NCBI GenBank assembly: GCA_019358895.1
Contig: JAHHIG010000022.1
Span: 1-64,000 of the forward strand
Direction: 5' to 3'
Source: Tildeniella nuda ZEHNDER 1965/U140
GTDB lineage: Bacteria; Cyanobacteriota; Cyanobacteriia; Leptolyngbyales; Leptolyngbyaceae
DNA: 64,000 nt
In this document: piece after piece, positions 1,446-12,374 of the stretch
How positions within the stretch are numbered: position 1 is the first letter of the stretch
Layout of the letters: every line of letters begins with the position of its first letter
The notes under the pieces: generated by a model
Told to the model about the DNA's origin: nothing
The model's database searches: none
Seen by the model: the letters and a program-made list of their open reading frames with translations, nothing else
Translations under genes and position numbers: made by a program

Positions 1446-3075
1446 GTTTCCAACTAATCCGATTTGGGTTAATCGGTAAAGTGAAGAAAAATTGATCCGT
1501 GATTCGGATTTGCGAAAGTTTCCAACTAATCCGATTTGGGTTAATCGGTAAAGAGAAGCGATCGCGCTTGCCACGGAAGACCGTTACAGCAGGTTTCCAA
1601 CTAATCCGATTTGGGTTAATCGGTAAAGCAACAGCCGCTGACGAAACAAGTGCAAAACGGATACGGGTTTCCAACTAATCCGATTTGGGTTAATCGGTAA
1701 AGGTTTACGTCAAAGCTACACTCACATTGCCTCAGGAAAAGGTTTCCAACTAATCCGATTTGGGTTAATCGGTAAAGGAAGCACTCACAGCCTACGCCCA
1801 AGGCGACATCAGCGGAGGTTTCCAACTAATCCGATTTGGGTTAATCGGTAAAGGCAAGCGAGGATTAATTTTTTCGTAACTGCTGTCGGACGTTTCCAAC
1901 TAATCCGATTTGGGTTAATCGGTAAAGGATCTGGCACAGCGGTAAAAGCCCCAATTTGTTTCATGCTGTTTCCAACTAATCCGATTTGGGTTAATCGGTA
2001 AAGGCGTCAGTTTAGTGCGTTGTTCTGGCACTTCCTTTTTGAATCGTTTCCAACTAATCCGATTTGGGTTAATCGGTAAAGTTCAGAAAGCGAAAGCGGC
2101 GATCGAGGCAGTACTTGAAAAGTTTCCAACTAATCCGATTTGGGTTAATCGGTAAAGTCGCTGAAGTGGAAGCTGCCATAATCTCTTTGAAAGAGAAGTT
2201 TCCAACTAATCCGATTTGGGTTAATCGGTAAAGAATGTAAAAATCAGTTTAAGCAATGTTTTATCTCAGAACGGAGTTTCCAACTAATCCGATTTGGGTT
2301 AATCGGTAAAGAAGCTCTCCGAAGCGCTGTATCGGACGATTCAAGACATCGTGTTTCCAACTAATCCGATTTGGGTTAATCGGTAAAGGATGTGTCTGCC
2401 GTCAAACAGTGGTTGAAAGAAAAGGGTTTCCAACTAATCCGATTTGGGTTAATCGGTAAAGTCGAAGCTCAAGGTTTCGTTGTTTTGTTTTTAGTTGTGT
2501 TTCCAACTAATCCGATTTGGGTTAATCGGTAAAGGCGCGAAATAATCAAGGAAGGATTATCACCTTTTGTGGTTTCCAACTAATCCGATTTGGGTTAATC
2601 GGTAAAGAGGAAACACCACTATCTATTGTGGTAACTCAATCTACTTCAAACGTTTCCAACTAATCCGATTTGGGTTAATCGGTAAAGATTCAGCTTCGGT
2701 GAGCAAGTGACGGCAACCACGTTGTGTTTCCAACTAATCCGATTTGGGTTAATCGGTAAAGGTGACGGGAGATCCCTACGTAAAATCGTTTACCGTCAGC
2801 GTCAACAGTGCGTTTCCAACTAATCCGATTTGGGTTAATCGGTAAAGTGCCTACCTCAAGCCCAAAGTGAAAGAGTACAGGTTTAACAGTTTCCAACTAA
2901 TCCGATTTGGGTTAATCGGTAAAGAGATCTGGGCTCAACCAATGCTGGAGCCAGTGGCACAAAGGTTTCCAACTAATCCGATTTGGGTTAATCGGTAAAG
3001 CAACGAACCAGCAGCAGTTTTTGCAAGGACTTGTCCCGTGTTTCCAACTAATCCGATTTGGGTTAATCGGTAAAG
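1446..3075 (-). CRISPR. CRISPR array, 22 repeats and 21 spacers
   Basis: The 36-bp repeat begins GTTTCCAACTAATCCG and ends GGTTAATCGGTAAAG on the plus strand, and all 22 copies appear identical. Spacers are 36-44 bp except one of 50 bp (2762-2811). Read on the minus strand the repeat starts CTTTACC, contains the stem CCGATT/AATCGG, and ends TTGGAAAC, the usual form of a type III or I-D crRNA 5' tag. I therefore assign transcription to the minus strand, leader side at 3076. cas2 is 250 bp upstream on the same strand and a Cmr effector operon follows, so this is a type III-B array. Repeat starts: 1446, 1518, 1593, 1667, 1742, 1818, 1892, 1968, 2046, 2122, 2198, 2276, 2353, 2426, 2499, 2572, 2652, 2726, 2812, 2889, 2965, 3040. 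Confidence 0.98.
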
Positions 3076-3324
3076 GCACCCTTCTGAAGCCCGCGCCTAG
3101 AAGCAGTTCCAGACGATAAAACTCCATAGGGGTAATTTGGCACAGTTCGCGCCTGCCTTTACGTTAGCACGTCACCGATTTTAGGGCTAGAAACGCCCTC
3201 CCTGTGTGGCATCCACAGAGGGCAACGAATCAATGCGGGTTGTGGCGATCTGCCGACCTGTGGAGCAATGCTGAGTTTCTGTTAGGGAAAAAGAGAAAAC
3301 ACAGAACACCAATAATATTTCCAT
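3076..3324 (-). promoter_or_regulatory. Probable CRISPR leader, between array and cas2
   Basis: This 249-bp gap joins the last (3040) repeat to the 3' end of cas2. By repeat orientation it should hold the leader and the promoter of the pre-crRNA. It includes an AT-rich stretch next to cas2 (about 3285-3324) and a strong hairpin (3195-3223, separate entry). The promoter itself cannot be located with confidence. Confidence 0.6.
3195..3223 (-). terminator. Hairpin in the leader region, possible cas2 terminator
   Basis: GCCCT (3195-3199) pairs with AGGGC (3219-3223), and CTGTG (3202-3206) pairs with CACAG (3214-3218), with a two-base bulge and a 7-base loop. There is no clear U-tract, so it may be a terminator for cas2 or a structural element of the leader. 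Confidence 0.4.
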
Positions 3325-3600
3325 TTAAATGATGTAGGCATTCGGCGGTGGTTCTGGAAGCGAACTACCGATCGTTAACACTCTCGAAACAGCCTCTTGA
3401 GAAAGCCAGTAAAAGCGAACATTATCTTCTGCTGGCTTCACCCGTTTTTTCACCGTTTGATGCAGTTTACGCATCTCCTCCAGGCTAATAAAACACTCGA
3501 AGACAGAATATTGCACTCGCCGACCATAGCCTTCCAGAAAATTTGCTAACTTTAGTCGTCGTTTGTCATCAGGAATATCGTAGACGATGAGTACCAGCAT
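3325..3600 (-). CDS. cas2: CRISPR-associated endonuclease Cas2
   Basis: Cas2 forms the spacer-integration complex with Cas1. The 91-residue length is normal. The N-terminal beta strand LVLIVYDIPDD carries the conserved Asp at residue 8, followed by KRRLKLANFLEGYGRRVQYS and VFEC, the family hallmark. It lies on the minus strand between the RT-Cas1 remnant (downstream on the plus coordinate) and the array, as expected of an rt-cas1-cas2-leader-array unit. The gene looks intact, but its partner Cas1 is broken in this window, so new spacers cannot be acquired from this locus unless another cas1 exists in the genome. Confidence 0.96.
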   Translation of the reverse strand: MLVLIVYDIPDDKRRLKLANFLEGYGRRVQYSVFECFISLEEMRKLHQTVKKRVKPAEDNVRFYWLSQEAVSRVLTIGSSLPEPPPNAYII

Positions 3601-3670
3601 GGGAGTGGGGAGTGGGGAGTGGGGAATGGGGAGTAGGGAGATGGGGAGATGGGGAGATGGGGAGGTGGGA
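3601..3670. repeat. Heptamer/octamer tandem repeat (GGGGAGT, ATGGGGAG)
   Basis: Purine-rich tandem units directly upstream of cas2 and before the four-helix-bundle gene. An upstream ATG at 3612 falls inside it and would give a glycine/tryptophan-rich artefact N-terminus, so it was not used as a start. Confidence 0.85.
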
Positions 3671-3719
3671 TGGGTATTCTATTGAGGAGAAAGAGATTGA
3701 GAGATCAGTGGAGAGGCGG

Positions 3720-4112
3720 ATGGAGAGAGGTTTTGTTAGGAGTCATCGGGATTTGGAGGTCTACGAGCTTGCGTTTGAGGCGGCGATGAGAATTTTTGAG
3801 CTATCGAAAAAATTTCCGGTTGAGGAACGGTATTCGCTTAGCGATCAGATGAGGCGCTCTTCCCGTTCAGTTTGTGCCAATCTGGGTGAGGCATGGCGTA
3901 AACGTCGCTATGAGGCAGCCTTTATAGCAAAACTGAGCGACTCTGAGGCAGAAGCCACTGAAACCCAAGTTTGGCTGGAATTCGCCGTCAAATGTGGCTA
4001 TTTGACTCCAGAAACTGGACAAGAACTTTTCCGCCGCTATGATCAAATTCTCGGCAAACTTGTCAACCTGATCAACAACTCCAACAAATGGTGCCTCTCC
4101 CCCAAAAAATAA
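3720..4112 (+). CDS. Four-helix-bundle protein (S23/IVP family)
   Basis: 130 residues from the ATG at 3720. The motifs FVRSHRDLEVYELAFE, FPVEERYSLSDQMRRSSRS, VCANLGEAW and the Glu/Lys-rich helices that follow are typical of the 23S rRNA intervening-sequence/four-helix-bundle family, which is structurally related to the Avd accessory protein of diversity-generating retroelements. The molecular role of stand-alone members is not established; nucleic-acid binding through a basic pentameric surface is proposed for relatives. The longer ORF from 3612 reads through a tandem repeat and is rejected. The gene sits on the opposite strand between cas2 and the cas1 remnant, flanked on both sides by repeat tracts, which suggests later insertion. 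Confidence 0.85.
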   Translation: MERGFVRSHRDLEVYELAFEAAMRIFELSKKFPVEERYSLSDQMRRSSRSVCANLGEAWRKRRYEAAFIAKLSDSEAEATETQVWLEFAVKCGYLTPETGQELFRRYDQILGKLVNLINNSNKWCLSPKK

Positions 4113-4114
4113 CT

Positions 4115-4201
4115 TACACCCCGTCTCTCTTAACCCCCTTATCTCCGGTACTCCCCACCTCCCTAGCTCCTTACACCCCATCCCCCTCTCTCCCCATCCC
4201 C
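4115..4201. repeat. Pyrimidine-rich degenerate repeat tract
   Basis: CCCC/CTCC-rich sequence between two convergent reading frames, of the same base composition class (opposite strand) as the tract at 3601-3670. No gene is seen in it. Confidence 0.6.
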
Positions 4202-4815
4202 TTAAATCACCCGCTCAAACGTTTCATAGGGGACATTACCCAACACCGCTTTGGTATAGCGCTGAATCTGGAGCTGAATTGCGCGACGATACGACACCTG
4301 CTCCTTCACATCGGGATGGGCGAGTTTCAGTGAGATGCGCTCTTCAAATTGCTTCAAAAACAAGCGTCTGGCAGGTTCAGCCAGATACACTCCCCCCGTT
4401 TCTGTGGGCCAAGTGAAATCGGTTGGGCGGAGCATCTTCTGGTTCACCAGCTTCATCACCAGGGTGTCTACAATGGGCGATCGAAACTCCTCCATCAAAT
4501 CAAACGCCAGATACGCTTTGGGTCGTTCTGCTCCATGCAGATTGCCCAAATAGGGATTGAGACCCTCCGCCAGCGACAAACTCAGTACTGCACAATGTCA
4601 GCATCGAGTACCCAGTCATAGCCGCGATCGCGCCATAACCCAACTTGCCGCACTGCCATCAGATGCGATCGACCGGGACGATAGGCAAAACTACACACCT
4701 CAAACTTGGGTTCCAACAGTGGATGCAGGACTTGCAGTAGCGCCTGTTGCACGATCTTCATTCTTCCAGTGCAGAATGAAATGAACCTGTCTTCCGAACT
4801 AAGTCCATCAACCAT
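4202..4815 (-). pseudogene. Reverse transcriptase-Cas1 fusion gene, internally deleted
   Basis: Two pieces read leftwards. The 5' piece (4815-4582) is the front of a group II-like reverse transcriptase: VDGLS, then GRMKIVQQALLQVL, SFAYRPGRS and the palm strand LDADIVQY, ending at a TGA. The 3' piece (about 4591-4202, another frame) is the C-terminal part of Cas1: LNPYLGNLHGAERP and LAFDLMEEFRSPIVD, keeping the catalytic His and Asp. Everything between is gone: the RT YADD motif, the rest of the RT, and the Cas1 N-terminal half with its catalytic Glu. A second smaller deletion is likely near 4770, where some 40-50 residues usually separate VDG from the IVQQAL motif. RT-Cas1 fusions acquire spacers from RNA or DNA in type III systems; this copy cannot work. 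Confidence 0.88.
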
Positions 4816-5581
4816 GACTTACTTTCATCTATTCTTTTGGCGACAAATACTGCCCTTCCTGATTGCCCAAACTCCTTCTCCCACAGTCAAACCCAGTCCC
4901 GCCCTTGATGTAACGTTACTGCAAGCACAATTAGAGTTTTTCAAGGATGCGAACTCCCGGTTGGCTGGCAGTTTTCAGTCGTTTACCACAACCGTTAATC
5001 TGGTGCTGGTGTTTCTCACCACTGTGCTTGGCATTTTGGGAGCGATCGCCTTTTTCCTCTACGGCAAAACGCTTAAAGAAGCCAAAGAAACAATCGAAAC
5101 CCAGGTGCGACAGGAAGTTGAACGGTCGATTTCCAGAACATTGAAGCGACGGGTGGATAATTTGGAGCGCGTGTTAACCCGAGAAGATATTGTGAGTCTG
5201 GTAGAAGTTGACTACCTCCTGCCAACGGCTCAAGAAATTCAACTGCCATTAGAATTTACTCTTCTGCGCGATCGCGGTTTTCTCATTCGTCCTCGCTTTG
5301 GGTTAAACAACTACCGCCCTCAAACCGATGTCACCGTTTTGGATCTGGTCAACTGCAATTCTTCCCCCGAAGACATCAAAAAGACCCTGACCCAGATCAA
5401 AGATCGGCTTTTCGATCGCTCTGTCCTCGTTATTTATGTGATCGGTCATTATCCAGAGGTCAACGAATTGGGGCAGAAAACCCGTTACTCCACCCCGGCT
5501 AACTTTACGCTCCGGCTGATTGGGACGGTTGTCGATGCAGCCTATGTCGCTCATACCTTACGCGATCGAACGGAAATCTAA
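4814..5581 (+). CDS. Membrane protein of unknown function, first gene of the Cmr operon
   Basis: 255 residues from the ATG at 4814; a longer ORF from 4706 reads through the RT remnant antisense and is not preferred. Residues 4-18 are hydrophobic (signal peptide or first TM), and 61-84 form a clear membrane helix (LVLVFLTTVLGILGAIAF). Residues 86-125 are charged and helical, probably a coiled coil. The C-terminal domain (about 140-255) shows an alternating pattern: strand VTVLDLVN (173-180), helix 184-200, strand SVLVIYVIG (203-211), then a further strand and helix, compatible with a small Rossmann-like fold. I do not recognise the family. It is 119 bp before cmr2 on the same strand, so it may be an ancillary effector or sensor of the type III complex; this is inference from position. 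Confidence 0.75.
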   Translation: MTYFHLFFWRQILPFLIAQTPSPTVKPSPALDVTLLQAQLEFFKDANSRLAGSFQSFTTTVNLVLVFLTTVLGILGAIAFFLYGKTLKEAKETIETQVRQEVERSISRTLKRRVDNLERVLTREDIVSLVEVDYLLPTAQEIQLPLEFTLLRDRGFLIRPRFGLNNYRPQTDVTVLDLVNCNSSPEDIKKTLTQIKDRLFDRSVLVIYVIGHYPEVNELGQKTRYSTPANFTLRLIGTVVDAAYVAHTLRDRTEI

Positions 5582-5700
5582 ATTTGAATAGAGTAAAGTC
5601 AAAGGCTTCCTCAGATTCAGTGTTATAACGGCGAACAACCCATTTGGGCTTGGCTCATCCAGGTAGTGGCATTACCATCCAAGTTCCAACTTCCGACTTG

Positions 5701-8645
<2,945 letters not shown>

Positions 8646-8684
8646 CTCTCCCATCTTCTACGAACTACAAAGTCTCAAAGAATC

Positions 8685-9572
8685 ATGTATCACAAAGCCT
8701 ACGGCATTATTGAAACTCTAGCTCCACTGCATGTGGGAGCCAGCGCTGGTGAGGAGACAGGCAACCTGAATCTCATCTTTCGCGATCAGTTCACCCAGAC
8801 TGGCATTATCCCCGGTAGCTCCATTCGAGGACGCTTTCGAGCCGATATGCGGGTTGTTGACAGCGCACTATCGAATGACTGTTACGGGCATGAAGCCATT
8901 TCAGGAAAAACAGACAGCACCACGGAAGCCTTGATTAAATTTGAATATGCTTCGTTGGTCTGGCTCCCAGTCTTTTGCCCTGGTCAGCCAGTCGTCTGGA
9001 TTACCTGCCCTCGACTACTGCGGCGCTATCGGCAGATTGCCCAAATACCCCCAGAAATTAGAATTCCTAATCCCTACAACGTTCAGTTGCAGAAACCGCG
9101 CAGAGTCCTCTTTTTCAACTTAGGTTTTCTGAAAAACTTAAAAGCTGTCACGGACTTGGCAGAGAATTGGGTGCCTAAAGGACTCAGTGCTCCACCCGAC
9201 AACCTGGTTGTCGTAGACGATAAAGACATTGGCATCATCCATGAAATGTCTCTCTACCGCCAAACGCGGGTAAAACTGGCTGATGACGAGAAAAAAGTGG
9301 ATGACAAAGCATTTTTTAATGTCGAAGCTCTGCCCGAAGGCAGCATTTTAGTGTTTCCAATTGCTGTGAAAGAAAAGCAGGCGAAGCATGAAGACTGGCT
9401 CACCGCCCTAGAGTTTACTGAGTGGCAGGCGATCACAGATGGACAGCAGCAAGCTGTACAGAAAAGTCTAGGAAAAGAACTGTATTTCGGTGGCTTGGAA
9501 TCGATCGGCTTTGGTCGGTGCAATGTGACCTTGGCAGGAAAATACTTTAGCGTCGGAGCAACAGACGAATGA
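8685..9572 (+). CDS. cmr4: Cmr4, Cas7-type backbone subunit
   Basis: 295 residues. APLHVGASAGEE (13-24) and TGIIPGSSIRGRFRAD (38-53) are the RAMP signatures of Cmr4, and LYFGGLESIGFGRCNV near the C-terminus is the glycine-rich loop. Cmr4 forms the helical filament along the crRNA and normally cuts target RNA at 6-nt intervals with an Asp in a G-x-x-D loop just before the IPGSS segment. Here the corresponding loop reads TGNLNLIFRD, with Asn29 where the Asp is expected; Asp34 lies nearby but aligns with the non-catalytic position of the IRD/QRE motif. The alignment is by eye. The gene overlaps cmr5 by 4 bp. Confidence 0.94.
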   Translation: MYHKAYGIIETLAPLHVGASAGEETGNLNLIFRDQFTQTGIIPGSSIRGRFRADMRVVDSALSNDCYGHEAISGKTDSTTEALIKFEYASLVWLPVFCPGQPVVWITCPRLLRRYRQIAQIPPEIRIPNPYNVQLQKPRRVLFFNLGFLKNLKAVTDLAENWVPKGLSAPPDNLVVVDDKDIGIIHEMSLYRQTRVKLADDEKKVDDKAFFNVEALPEGSILVFPIAVKEKQAKHEDWLTALEFTEWQAITDGQQQAVQKSLGKELYFGGLESIGFGRCNVTLAGKYFSVGATDE

Positions 9573-9931
9573 CCTGGCAATCCTATGAATTAGATCTACG
9601 TGCACGGAGACTGGTTAAAGATCAAGGTGAACAATCAATCAAAGAATCCTACAAGATGCGAGAAGCCGTTGCTTATGGACTAGAGCGGTTTTGGGGTGAA
9701 CACTTACGTCTCGAAGAGAAAGAACCAGAAAAGTCAGCTTACTGGAAAGCAACCTGGGACGGGTTGGTCGATATCCTCAGTGAGACTGAGATTCACTTGC
9801 CAAAGCATCAAAACGTTAATGCAATGGCGGATGAATTGTGGAAATTGAACCGCGATGATCAACAAGTTGCTCTAGCTGTGCTGACTCAATTTTGCAATTC
9901 TCTCGTTTGGTGGACCCAGCGTTACAAATAG
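9569..9931 (+). CDS. cmr5: Cmr5, small (Cas11) subunit
   Basis: 120 residues, all-helical composition, usual for Cmr5. Family-like features are ELDLRARRLVKD near the start, the central YKMREAVAYGLERF, and the C-terminal ALAVLTQFCNSLVWWTQRYK. Small subunits line the inner face of the Cmr complex and contact the target RNA. The ATG overlaps the end of cmr4 (ATGA-type, 4 bp), which supports this start and translational coupling. The next gene begins 49 bp downstream. Confidence 0.9.
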   Translation: MTWQSYELDLRARRLVKDQGEQSIKESYKMREAVAYGLERFWGEHLRLEEKEPEKSAYWKATWDGLVDILSETEIHLPKHQNVNAMADELWKLNRDDQQVALAVLTQFCNSLVWWTQRYK

Positions 9932-9980
9932 TCTTCGTAGCCCAGCTTGGTTCTGTGACAGCTAACCTTTGTAAAACAGT

Positions 9981-11642
9981 ATGAATAACAGTCAGCAATT
10001 CCCTAAGATCCCGAAAATGTATCAGGCACAGGTCGATAAGCGCTGTAGCTTGCAGTATGTTGCAGAATTAGAGGATTTAGATACCTGGGTACAAGAATGG
10101 ACTGATCCTAAGGACGATCAGCAGCCTTATCAGTTACCAGAATCCACGCTGGGGCAAGATAGTTTGACTTATCGCATGAAGATTAAGTTCTCAGGACGTG
10201 TGTTTAGTAACTGTGGGCGCGATAGCATACCACGACCTGTGTTAGGGAAGAATGGCATACCCTGTATCCCAGGTAGTAGCGTGAAAGGTCTGTTTCGTCG
10301 AGCCTGCAACGAGGAGCAAAAAATTTGGTATTGCGGGAATGGAGACCAACCTGGGAAATTACGCTTTCACGGAGCTTACCCGATCGGAGATTGGACAGGG
10401 AAGAAAAAAGTTCCTGTATTACAGGATGGGCAAAGGGTGTCTGCAACCCGTTACTGCATAGTTGATTTGGTACATCCTCAGCAAGAGCGACAGGTTGTAA
10501 CAAAAGACACAAGTAAAGAAACTACTACTGCGATCGCGCTGATTAGCTTCTACGAGCCAACATTCTTGTTTGAGTTTAGCAGTCGCTCTCAAATTAACTG
10601 GCAAGAAGTAGACACGTTGTTACGTCAAGCACTTAGACGAGGCTTAGGCGGTAAGACCAGTACAGGGTATGGTTTGAGTTCAGAGGCGGCATTAAAACCA
10701 AGCTATGCTCAACAGCAAGAGTTGTCCTATCAAAACGCTATTCATGTACGCTTCAAGGGATCTGGAGTCAGTTCCGTTTTGCTCAACAAAGAGCCAGAGT
10801 TTCGACCTAATCTCTTCAAAGCGACTCTAAGAGGTCATATTATGCGGTTGCTAGCAGGGTGCTGTGGGAATGAGAATAGTGTCAGAAGCACTGTTGACGA
10901 TCTTTTTGGAAGTACGAATGCTCCAGGAACTGTGCAGATTTTTTGGGAGTCTGGTAGAAAACCGACTTACAACACTCAAGGTCGAAATCCAACTTATTCA
11001 ACTCAAGGGACACTACACATTCAAGTATCGGAAACTGACCGCTATTTTGTTCAACAAGTTCTGCGCTTTGCTTACATCATGGGCGGCTTTGGTAAAGCTT
11101 GGCGTAGGGTATCACACGAAAAGTTTTATCCAACATATAGTCAGAATAAGTTTGAGATCGGCTGTCATTGGGAGTGTCTCGACTCCGGTTGGATCAACAT
11201 CAGCACCACAGCACAGTTAAAAGACTTTTTGCTCTGTTGTCAGTGTGAAATCTACCAGAGCTCGTCTAAAACGATTCCTCTCAACCAGTGGCGAGAGGCT
11301 TGGAATCCCAAATGTGTAGCGGTTTACAGCAGCAGTGAACCAGTCAAGCAGTCCAAAGTGGTGCAGCTTTTTCACGATGAAATTTTTAAGACAACACCCG
11401 CGATCGGCGGTAGAAATCCGCACAAAGAACATCCAAAAAAGTTTAATCCACCTCAAAACACAAGCTCAGTTTGGCATCGGATGTTGCCGATCGGAGACAA
11501 CCAGTATCTAGAAATTGTGACTGTGTTTCATGGCGATCGCGCCCCCTGGAAGCGAGAAGGAACAGATCAACTTAAGGCATTCACTGATGCCGTTAAAGCT
11601 AACGGACTCCAGCGTACTTGGGGCACTGAACCGTGGTTGTAG
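9981..11642 (+). CDS. Double-RAMP protein, Cmr6-like with Cmr1-like C-terminal half
   Basis: 553 residues, about twice a single RAMP. The N-terminal half (about 55-235) has IKFSGRVF, GIPCIPGSSVKGLFRRA and the glycine-rich loop GLGGKTSTGYG (about 221-231), as in Cmr6. The C-terminal half (about 250-420) starts a second fold: AIHVRFKGSG, FRPNLFKATLRGHIMRLLAG and YIMGGFGKAWRR, resembling Cmr1-type RAMPs. No separate cmr1 exists in the operon, so this single protein may cap the complex and bind the crRNA 3' end in both roles. The family assignment of the second half is inference from motif pattern. It is the last cmr gene in the operon. Confidence 0.85.
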   Translation: MNNSQQFPKIPKMYQAQVDKRCSLQYVAELEDLDTWVQEWTDPKDDQQPYQLPESTLGQDSLTYRMKIKFSGRVFSNCGRDSIPRPVLGKNGIPCIPGSSVKGLFRRACNEEQKIWYCGNGDQPGKLRFHGAYPIGDWTGKKKVPVLQDGQRVSATRYCIVDLVHPQQERQVVTKDTSKETTTAIALISFYEPTFLFEFSSRSQINWQEVDTLLRQALRRGLGGKTSTGYGLSSEAALKPSYAQQQELSYQNAIHVRFKGSGVSSVLLNKEPEFRPNLFKATLRGHIMRLLAGCCGNENSVRSTVDDLFGSTNAPGTVQIFWESGRKPTYNTQGRNPTYSTQGTLHIQVSETDRYFVQQVLRFAYIMGGFGKAWRRVSHEKFYPTYSQNKFEIGCHWECLDSGWINISTTAQLKDFLLCCQCEIYQSSSKTIPLNQWREAWNPKCVAVYSSSEPVKQSKVVQLFHDEIFKTTPAIGGRNPHKEHPKKFNPPQNTSSVWHRMLPIGDNQYLEIVTVFHGDRAPWKREGTDQLKAFTDAVKANGLQRTWGTEPWL

Positions 11643-11693
11643 AAATATCTTTTTGGGCAGCATCTCCGATACACCCCATTTCCCAATCACCCC

Positions 11694-11978
11694 ATGCGCC
11701 TTAACCAGTCTAAAATCGCTCAGATTTTCTTCAACCCTGAAACCCTGCTGCCCTTTCTCTTTGGCTCCGTTTTTCTCGCCGTTGTAGGCAACGCTGTTAC
11801 TCAAATCCTGTTTAAGATGTTCGGCGATTCTGCTCAATCTGCTTTGGGCATTGCCGTTGGAGCCGTTCTCATCTTTGTCGGATCAATTTTTCTCTTTGCT
11901 AGAGGGCTAGAACGGCACGTGAAGGTTGAACCCAATCCCAGAAGCCCCAAAAAGCATCGTGGGCTAATACCAATTTGA
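11694..11978 (+). CDS. Small two-TM membrane protein following the cmr genes
   Basis: 94 residues from the ATG at 11694. Two hydrophobic helices are visible: about 17-40 (LLPFLFGSVFLAVVGNAV) and about 48-68 (LGIAVGAVLIFVGSIFLFA), followed by a basic, proline-rich tail. The family is not recognised. It starts 51 bp after the double-RAMP gene on the same strand and is probably co-transcribed. Small membrane proteins accompany many type III CRISPR loci, so a role as a downstream effector is possible but unproven; it could also be an unrelated neighbour. Confidence 0.6.
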   Translation: MRLNQSKIAQIFFNPETLLPFLFGSVFLAVVGNAVTQILFKMFGDSAQSALGIAVGAVLIFVGSIFLFARGLERHVKVEPNPRSPKKHRGLIPI

Positions 11979-12095
11979 TTGGTGAATGCAACACATGCGA
12001 TCCCCCTGCCTCCGGCATCCCCTTTAATAAGGACGACTGAGGGGGATCGGTTCGGGGCAAGATCTGTCACGAGGTCTGTTTAACCTGGTATCGTT
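11979..12095. other. Short intergenic stretch
   Basis: No gene seen. A GGGGGATC...GATCCCCC inverted pair (about 12000-12050) could form a hairpin downstream of the CRISPR operon. Confidence 0.35.
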
Positions 12096-12374
12096 TACGC
12101 TTGCCCGTTCGATCAATGAATTCACTGATCCTGGATTAGCGATCGCTCATTCGATAAGTGAGGTCATCGATCCGGAAAATGCGATCGCCAATTCAATCAA
12201 TGCGATCATCGATCCAGGAATTGCAATGACCCATTCGATCAATGAAAGCACCAGTCCGATAATTGAAGTCTCTAATCTGACAATTGCGATCGCTCACTTA
12301 ACAACTGCGATCGCCGATCCGAAATGTGCGATCGCCATTTCAGTCAATGCGATCGCTGATCCAGAAATTGCTTC
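12096..12374 (+). repeat. 21-bp minisatellite with alternating half-units
   Basis: About 13 degenerate units of 21 bp. Odd and even units alternate between a GCGATCGC...TCAAT type and a GCGATC...GATCCRGAAATT type, giving a 42-bp higher-order period. Because 21 is a multiple of three, a frame stays open and reads as heptapeptides such as AIADPEI, but there is no ribosome binding site and the first ATG is internal (12226). I treat it as a repeat between the CRISPR operon and glyQ. Confidence 0.85.

Follow-up and report, generated by a model that had tools for sequence, protein, structure and literature searches.

A III-Bv Cmr locus of Tildeniella nuda as a probable RNA-guided signalling system with a candidate Cam2-like membrane effector

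The closest relatives of the system considered here have already been described. One is III-Bv, the subtype reported for CRISPR3 of Synechocystis (Behler et al. 2018). Another is Cam2, a predicted membrane effector of type III systems whose predicted activator is cyclic tri-adenylate (cA3) (Hoikkala et al. 2024, PMC11229360), and according to the respective reports Cam1 (PMC10808066) and Cap1 (PMC12642688) turn a cyclic tetra-adenylate (cA4) signal into membrane disturbance. In the type III-B complexes studied, cutting of the bound RNA is said to switch the complex off, and an RNase-dead Cmr4-alpha was toxic in Saccharolobus, while the matching Cmr4-beta mutation was readily made (PMC9368842); since VmeCmr is also reported to behave alike with and without D26 (PMC8682760), this off-switch would not be vital everywhere. 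The window analysed, i.e. the whole stretch of 64,000 nucleotides of Tildeniella nuda ZEHNDER 1965/U140 (contig JAHHIG010000022.1, positions 1 to 64,000), holds one CRISPR locus. It spans positions 1446-11978 and comprises a CRISPR array, cas2, a broken gene for a reverse transcriptase-Cas1 protein (RT-Cas1), a gene of the Mem_02 family, cmr2 to cmr6 and a short frame with two transmembrane (TM) helices. The original prediction, made from the sequence alone, had missed that the 22-repeat array, cas2 and the broken RT-Cas1 at 4205-4788 belong to the same locus.

We read the locus, with a probability of about 0.55, as an RNA-guided alarm, in which a III-Bv Cmr complex produces a cyclic oligoadenylate signal that is read by the Mem_02/Cam2-like protein. 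A CRISPR RNA (crRNA) from the neighbouring array would guide Cmr2 to Cmr6 to invader RNA, and this target RNA would trigger the HD-less, GGDD-bearing Cas10 to synthesise the cyclic oligoadenylate, the complex itself presumably cutting neither RNA nor DNA. On binding the signal through its receiver-like domain, Mem_02 would alter the membrane helices, and the resulting leakage or depolarisation of the membrane would lead to growth arrest. What was observed is the gene content, the motifs and their conservation, the truncations, the recurrence of the genes close to type III loci and, in the model of a homologue, how the Mem_02 domain folds. The sequences support a sensor of RNA in which the cyclase motif is intact and no nuclease can be recognised, and to that extent the original prediction of a signalling-only complex with a membrane effector stands, but not in taking both membrane proteins as effectors. 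Moreover, the signalling-only state is not special to the window, being that of the III-Bv loci sampled. The features of the locus are as follows.

1446..3075, - strand: CRISPR array of 22 repeats of 36 nt, all identical (CTTTACCGATTAACCCAAATCGGATTAGTTGGAAAC in crRNA sense, on the - strand)
3325..3600, - strand: cas2 (Pfam PF09827, 4.2e-24)
4205..4579, - strand: RT-Cas1 remnant, C-terminal 125 aa of Cas1 (64-80% identity to sister Cas1 C-termini)
4585..4788, - strand: RT-Cas1 remnant, short reverse transcriptase piece (68 aa, 76% identity to the RT-Cas1 of locus L123)
4781..5581, + strand: Mem_02/Cam2-like membrane protein with TM segment, long helix and REC-like C-terminal domain (PADLOC Mem_02 2.5e-49, C3a55 3e-42)
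5701..7479, + strand: cmr2/cas10b, HD-less, with GGDD (PADLOC PDLC02051, 8.8e-195; start ATG at 5701 or 5710)
7464..8645, + strand: cmr3 (PF09700, 3.2e-15)
8685..9572, + strand: cmr4 lacking the catalytic Asp (motif GNLN; codon of Asn29 at 8769-8771)
9569..9931, + strand: cmr5 (PADLOC PDLC01476, 2.7e-52)
9981..11642, + strand: cmr6 of Cmr1-6 type, 553 aa (PADLOC PDLC01212, 3.6e-133)
11694..11978, + strand: CARF8-TM effector truncated at the first CARF strand, with two TM helices and no CARF domain (PDLC01943 positions 1-92 of 229, 1.7e-31)

The genes for Mem_02 and Cmr2 to Cmr6 are intact open frames, and cmr3, cmr4, cmr5 and cmr6 share one operon. Cas10, the only Cas10 palm in the whole assembly, matches the HD-less Cas10b family PDLC02051 far above chance; in our reading, this is the family of the systems named III-Bv in Synechocystis. 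A survey of 388 cyanobacterial genomes detected it in 162 at E 0.001, many of the matches being weak, and 92 III-Bv Cas10 places in 84 genomes, a few of the places partial, passed a cut-off near 340 bits; Cas10 frames below 450 aa or 650 bits were dropped before the counts that follow. GGDD is present in all 41 III-Bv Cas10s compared, the one of the window included, where it lies at residue 366 counted from a TTG start and thus at the expected 347-350 when counted from the ATG at 5701. The Palm of the window protein starts almost at the N-terminus, and all 41 sequences have 0-60 residues ahead of it, which leaves no room for the HD nuclease domain of a canonical III-B Cas10. A Pfam scan found no HD family in any of 10 window proteins, so that both the predicted lack of the domain in Cmr2 and the lack of one split off elsewhere among these proteins were confirmed.

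A canonical III-B Cmr4 carries a catalytic Asp that is missing here. Residue 29 of the window protein is Asn, as predicted, inside a GNLN stretch, and all 37 III-Bv Cmr4s compared have GNLNL at residues 26-30 and none the catalytic Asp (frames below 200 aa, among them the split or cut ones of loci L100 and L119, were dropped). In a profile of 18 III-Bv Cmr4s, Asn29 aligns with the Asp of the solved Cmr4s, namely D26 in 4wnz, presumably of Pyrococcus, and the Asp of 9arw. Because the loop has one residue fewer than that of a canonical Cmr4, the residue on the catalytic column varies with the alignment (Asn29, Leu28 or a gap); no alignment to Cmr4 or Csm3 proteins, those of solved structure included, places an Asp there. 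A Cmr4 lacking this residue would leave the bound RNA uncut, and hence neither cleavage by the complex nor the off-switch that depends on target cleavage is expected.

As for the receiver of the signal, a TM protein was predicted to open the operon and does precede cmr2. It has a hydropathy TM segment at residues 67-96 and is the only intact candidate effector that was found. Sequence searches against PDB and Pfam gave no credible relative, a scan of viral contigs found none, and a viral structure search gave nothing useful; the possibility of a divergent CARF domain received no support from a profile comparison with CARF8-TM (0.3% probability). The globular domain of the homologue at locus L152, to which the window protein is 42% identical over the modelled part, gave a model with a predicted local distance difference test score (pLDDT) of 79.9 and a predicted template modelling score of 0.80, the best of five. 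Most of the structures that match it are receivers of response regulators (Z 10.9 for 3kcn, 9.9 for AmiR 1qo0 and 9.1 for CpaE 4n0p; best Foldseek E 4e-3), and going by this model the C-terminal domain of Mem_02 would be REC-like. All 17 Mem_02 sequences compared share Asp188, Tyr219 and Asn241.

The family was found at 57 places in 47 of the 388 genomes, and 30 of these places, in 27 of the 47 genomes, are at most 15 kb from a Cas10 palm (place counts exclude further fragments of counted genes and the 13 weakest Cas10 palm rows). The loci include III-Bv, III-B with a long Cas10 and other type III systems, and Cas10 carries GGDD in 18 of 18 checked; a homologue on a Nostoc plasmid adjoins a CHAT-SAVED gene. 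Mem_02 is the sole recognised effector candidate in five of the 41 III-Bv loci (L112-L116), with a stop inside it in two. The stops are TGA codons in G211:C1 and G258:C151 (L113 and L114), and cmr2 of G258 is also broken. Mem_02 genes far from any Cas10 match were seen on long contigs (G299:C1:6304825, G173:C2:392815, G162:C1:562003); these could be solitary effectors or partners of something else.

A number of observations speak against the alarm reading. On the side of the complex, E24 and D34 of Cmr4 are invariant in the 37 III-Bv sequences and could in principle replace the missing Asp, in which case the complex would still be a nuclease that cuts its target RNA and the membrane protein would be secondary. 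In addition, a Microcystis III-B complex alone is reported to have inhibited T4 in E. coli in the absence of Csx1, which enhanced the effect (PMC11855584), and the systems of that study are probably of the present kind, since its cluster 3 repeat matches the array next to the III-Bv Cas10 of L022 without a difference and the repeats at L106, L108, L109 and L128 are similar to that of its cluster 4. We nevertheless consider a nuclease of this sort unlikely: the GNLNL stretch puts no Asp on or beside the aligned column, and D26A abolishes RNA cleavage in VmeCmr, as a change of the Asp at this site does in the other type III systems studied according to the same report (PMC8682760). The E. coli experiments without Csx1, for their part, leave the mode of T4 inhibition unshown, and their authors ask for more study of cleavage by Cmr4 (PMC11855584).

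On the side of the effector, the other four models of the L152 domain had pLDDT values of 43-50 and the full-length AlphaFold model of the window Mem_02, built with five sequences, was poor (pLDDT 44.6). Mem_02 lies on contigs without a Cas10 match at 21 of the 57 places and more than 30 kb away at three, and it is broken by stops in two of the seven III-Bv loci that have it. Locus L108 holds both Mem_02 and a CARF-HEPN gene; CARF-HEPN proteins usually respond to cA4 or cyclic hexa-adenylate (cA6), while Cam2 is predicted to use cA3. It can also be imagined that the signal of the complex is read by an unlinked effector from a different family, Mem_02 having some other role, for instance as a phosphorylated receiver. 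Receivers carry the phosphorylated Asp at the end of the third strand, which is where the invariant Asp188 lies, some Mem_02 genes are away from Cas10, and the CARF search of the genome covered one CARF family besides CARF8-TM. Against this, the first-strand acid varies in Mem_02 (Asp in 12 of 17) and Asn, not the Lys usual in receivers, comes after the last strand, both positions having been judged by eye, no histidine kinase is among the 10 proteins scanned, and Mem_02 recurs beside Cas10s with GGDD, so that we regard this alternative, too, as improbable. As to the locus being a decaying relic that lost its adaptation genes and one effector and no longer defends, the two pieces of RT-Cas1 in a genome with no other Cas1 match, the truncated CARF8-TM and the absence of the HD-less Cas10 from six other drawn genomes of the genus would fit, but the open frames of Cmr2 to Cmr6 and Mem_02 with their family motifs kept and the 22 identical repeats of the array make it doubtful.

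The second membrane protein, predicted to close the operon and indeed encoded after the last cmr gene, probably does not have the role proposed for it. Its 94 residues, with two N-terminal TM helices, match positions 1-92 of the 229 of PDLC01943 (CARF8-TM) and share 53-59% identity with five copies that are intact; what had gone unnoticed is that it corresponds to CARF8-TM minus the CARF domain. Where intact copies enter the first CARF strand with KHRGLILLVS, the frame has KHRGLIPI and then a stop. The three frames downstream of the gene showed no CARF reading, and only positions 1-93 of the CARF8-TM model were matched genome-wide. Without this domain the protein cannot sense a signal as intact CARF8-TM proteins do, and the gene is probably a dead fragment whose sensor is gone. 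It is the only one so cut among the eleven best matches in the 388 genomes, one full-length copy also carrying a stop. Full-length CARF8-TM genes are at most 9 kb from a Cas10 palm at 8 of 10 places; recurrence near type III loci, on which the membrane genes were to be judged, applies to both families. Directly after the truncation, at 12000-12048, is a palindromic element, GATCCCCC...GGGGGATC, of which one 84% copy was found at G000:C13:8817; it may be a trace left behind when the CARF domain was lost.

The III-Bv loci sampled differ in effector between two branches of the Cas10 tree. The sample has to be borne in mind here: L092-L111 were drawn from the top scorers for the HD-less Cas10 (not every one was taken), 14 of the 20 loci L112-L131 were chosen for a nearby Mem_02 or CARF8-TM and the genomes of another four carry Mem_02 at a different place, so that the frequency of these effectors in the 41 loci is inflated, and several of the loci compared end at contig edges. 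A tree of the Cas10s, which excludes L114 with its broken Cmr2, has two fully supported halves (100/100). One half has CARF-HEPN genes in 19 of its 21 loci and the other in 1 of 19, whereas CARF8-TM or Mem_02 is in 2 of 21 rows of the former and in 15 of 20 rows of the latter, L117 making up two rows. Among the 26 loci not chosen for a nearby effector, CARF-HEPN was present in none of the five of the membrane half and in 19 of the 21 of the other; the p-values computed for these contrasts take no account of how the loci are related. In L117, where the CARF-HEPN gene is at 9306-10619, two III-Bv Cas10 operons start some 8 kb apart with this gene between them. Small genes belonging to the PADLOC candidate families PDC-S17 and PDC-S03 were seen in III-Bv loci without CARF-HEPN (L116:6366-7010, L099:10369-10899 and L129:16831-17577).

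The loss of the catalytic Asp is wider than III-Bv. In the cyanobacterial III-B group with a long Cas10 (L163-L174, L177-L182, L147, L148 and L150), in which L163-L182 were chosen as long-frame weak Cas10 matches, it is absent from 21 of 21 Cmr4s; in this group Cas10 has an LHDP motif near the N-terminus in 15 of 21 and GGDD in 20 of 21. III-Bv lacks HD as well. The Asp is present in L175, L176 and the Thermomicrobium locus L157. The 58 III-B Cmr4s without it (37 of III-Bv and 21 with a long Cas10) make it somewhat more probable than the opposite that a large lineage of cyanobacterial Cmr complexes is naturally RNase-dead, signals without the off-switch of target cleavage and has split into a branch mostly with CARF-HEPN RNases and one mostly with exchangeable membrane effectors (CARF8-TM or Mem_02/Cam2). 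In the III-Bv branch, where Cmr4 lacks the Asp and Cas10 lacks HD, only the cyclase is left, and signalling would thus proceed without being ended by target cleavage. Group-wide loss of the Cmr4 Asp was not found stated in the literature searched, which did not extend to the naming paper (Behler 2018), where it may be reported. It is this loss, together with that of HD across the group, that seems worth following. A lineage apparently without the cut makes testable how the alarm is turned off. Moreover, simple Cmr complexes with one expected activity would be useful for finding the ligand of Cam2-like proteins, the activator of which has so far only been predicted.

The layout of the sister loci bears on the history of the locus. 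In these (L119-L124, L131 and others), cas2, RT-Cas1 and CARF8-TM are on one strand and cmr2 to cmr6 on the other, and Mem_02 of the window occupies the position held there by CARF8-TM. The Cas10 of the window groups with those of L117, L120 and L131, all of which have CARF8-TM (support 99/97). The Cas1 piece at 4205-4579 shows its 64-80% identity to the eight best sister frames listed and corresponds, for example, to aa 578-702 of the 702 of the RT-Cas1 of L123, while the reverse transcriptase piece at 4585-4788 corresponds to aa 76-143 of the same protein; the window thus retains 68 aa of reverse transcriptase and 125 aa of Cas1 out of a protein of about 700 aa. The Cas1 piece is the sole Cas1 match in the genome, in which no whole Cas1 was found. 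An exchange of effectors that damaged RT-Cas1 would be the simplest history. The array appears to be transcribed in the sense of the - strand, judging from the GGAAAC end of the repeat. Similar repeats (up to 6 mismatches allowed) adjoin the III-Bv loci L117, L119, L120, L123 and L131, and three plasmid records match the array, one of them adjoining cas2 of a III-B locus; its spacers gave no match in phages.

No separate Cmr1, as a canonical III-B operon would have, was matched among the operon proteins. The proposed fusion of Cmr6 and Cmr1 is putative: the best PADLOC match assigns the 553-aa protein to a single Cmr6 family, and its profile search against PDB gave weak matches, as did the comparisons of its N-terminal half with one Cmr6 (17% probability) and of its C-terminal half with one Cmr1 (best local match E 0.016, 2.8% probability). 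The C-terminal half is possibly Cmr1-like, and a Cmr1-6 fusion of such kind is reported in Microcystis. The lack of Csm6/Csx1 and cas6 noted in the window holds, within the reach of three families, for the whole assembly (6.08 Mb, 96% complete): no Csx1/Csm6 (PDLC01031, best E 0.82) and no Cas6 (PF10040 or PF01881) were found in it. Between cas2 and the RT-Cas1 remnant, at 3612-4112, is a gene for a four-helix bundle of the 23S-rRNA-intervening-sequence/Avd-like type, and pieces of a relative adjoin RT-Cas1 in L139. Downstream of the truncated CARF8-TM gene, CGATC-rich repeats of about 42 nt occupy 12103-12371, ahead of a gene that looks like glyQ. A search of Rfam at gathering scores had no match.

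Compared with the systems known, the locus resembles Synechocystis III-Bv in being a cyanobacterial III-B operon for which no Cas6 was found; crRNA is reported to be matured by RNase E in Synechocystis, and a plasmid of Synechocystis B12 carries a 44% identical HD-less Cas10, in several frames. It differs from CRISPR3 as described, where a csx3 homologue lies upstream, in having Mem_02 beside cmr2 and a broken RT-Cas1, and in the lack of the Cmr4 Asp, documented here for the group. Mem_02 agrees with the published description of Cam2 in the N-terminal TM segment, the REC-like C-terminal domain and the position beside type III loci with a cyclase, one homologue being located beside CHAT-SAVED, so that the two are likely to be of the same family. 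The closing protein shares the two N-terminal TM helices with CARF8-TM and Cam1-type effectors, but not the CARF domain. Finally, the known HD-less III-B system with a NucC effector has in common with the locus the HD-less Cas10 and an action through a second messenger, but differs from it in keeping D26 of Cmr4 and a slow RNA cleavage.

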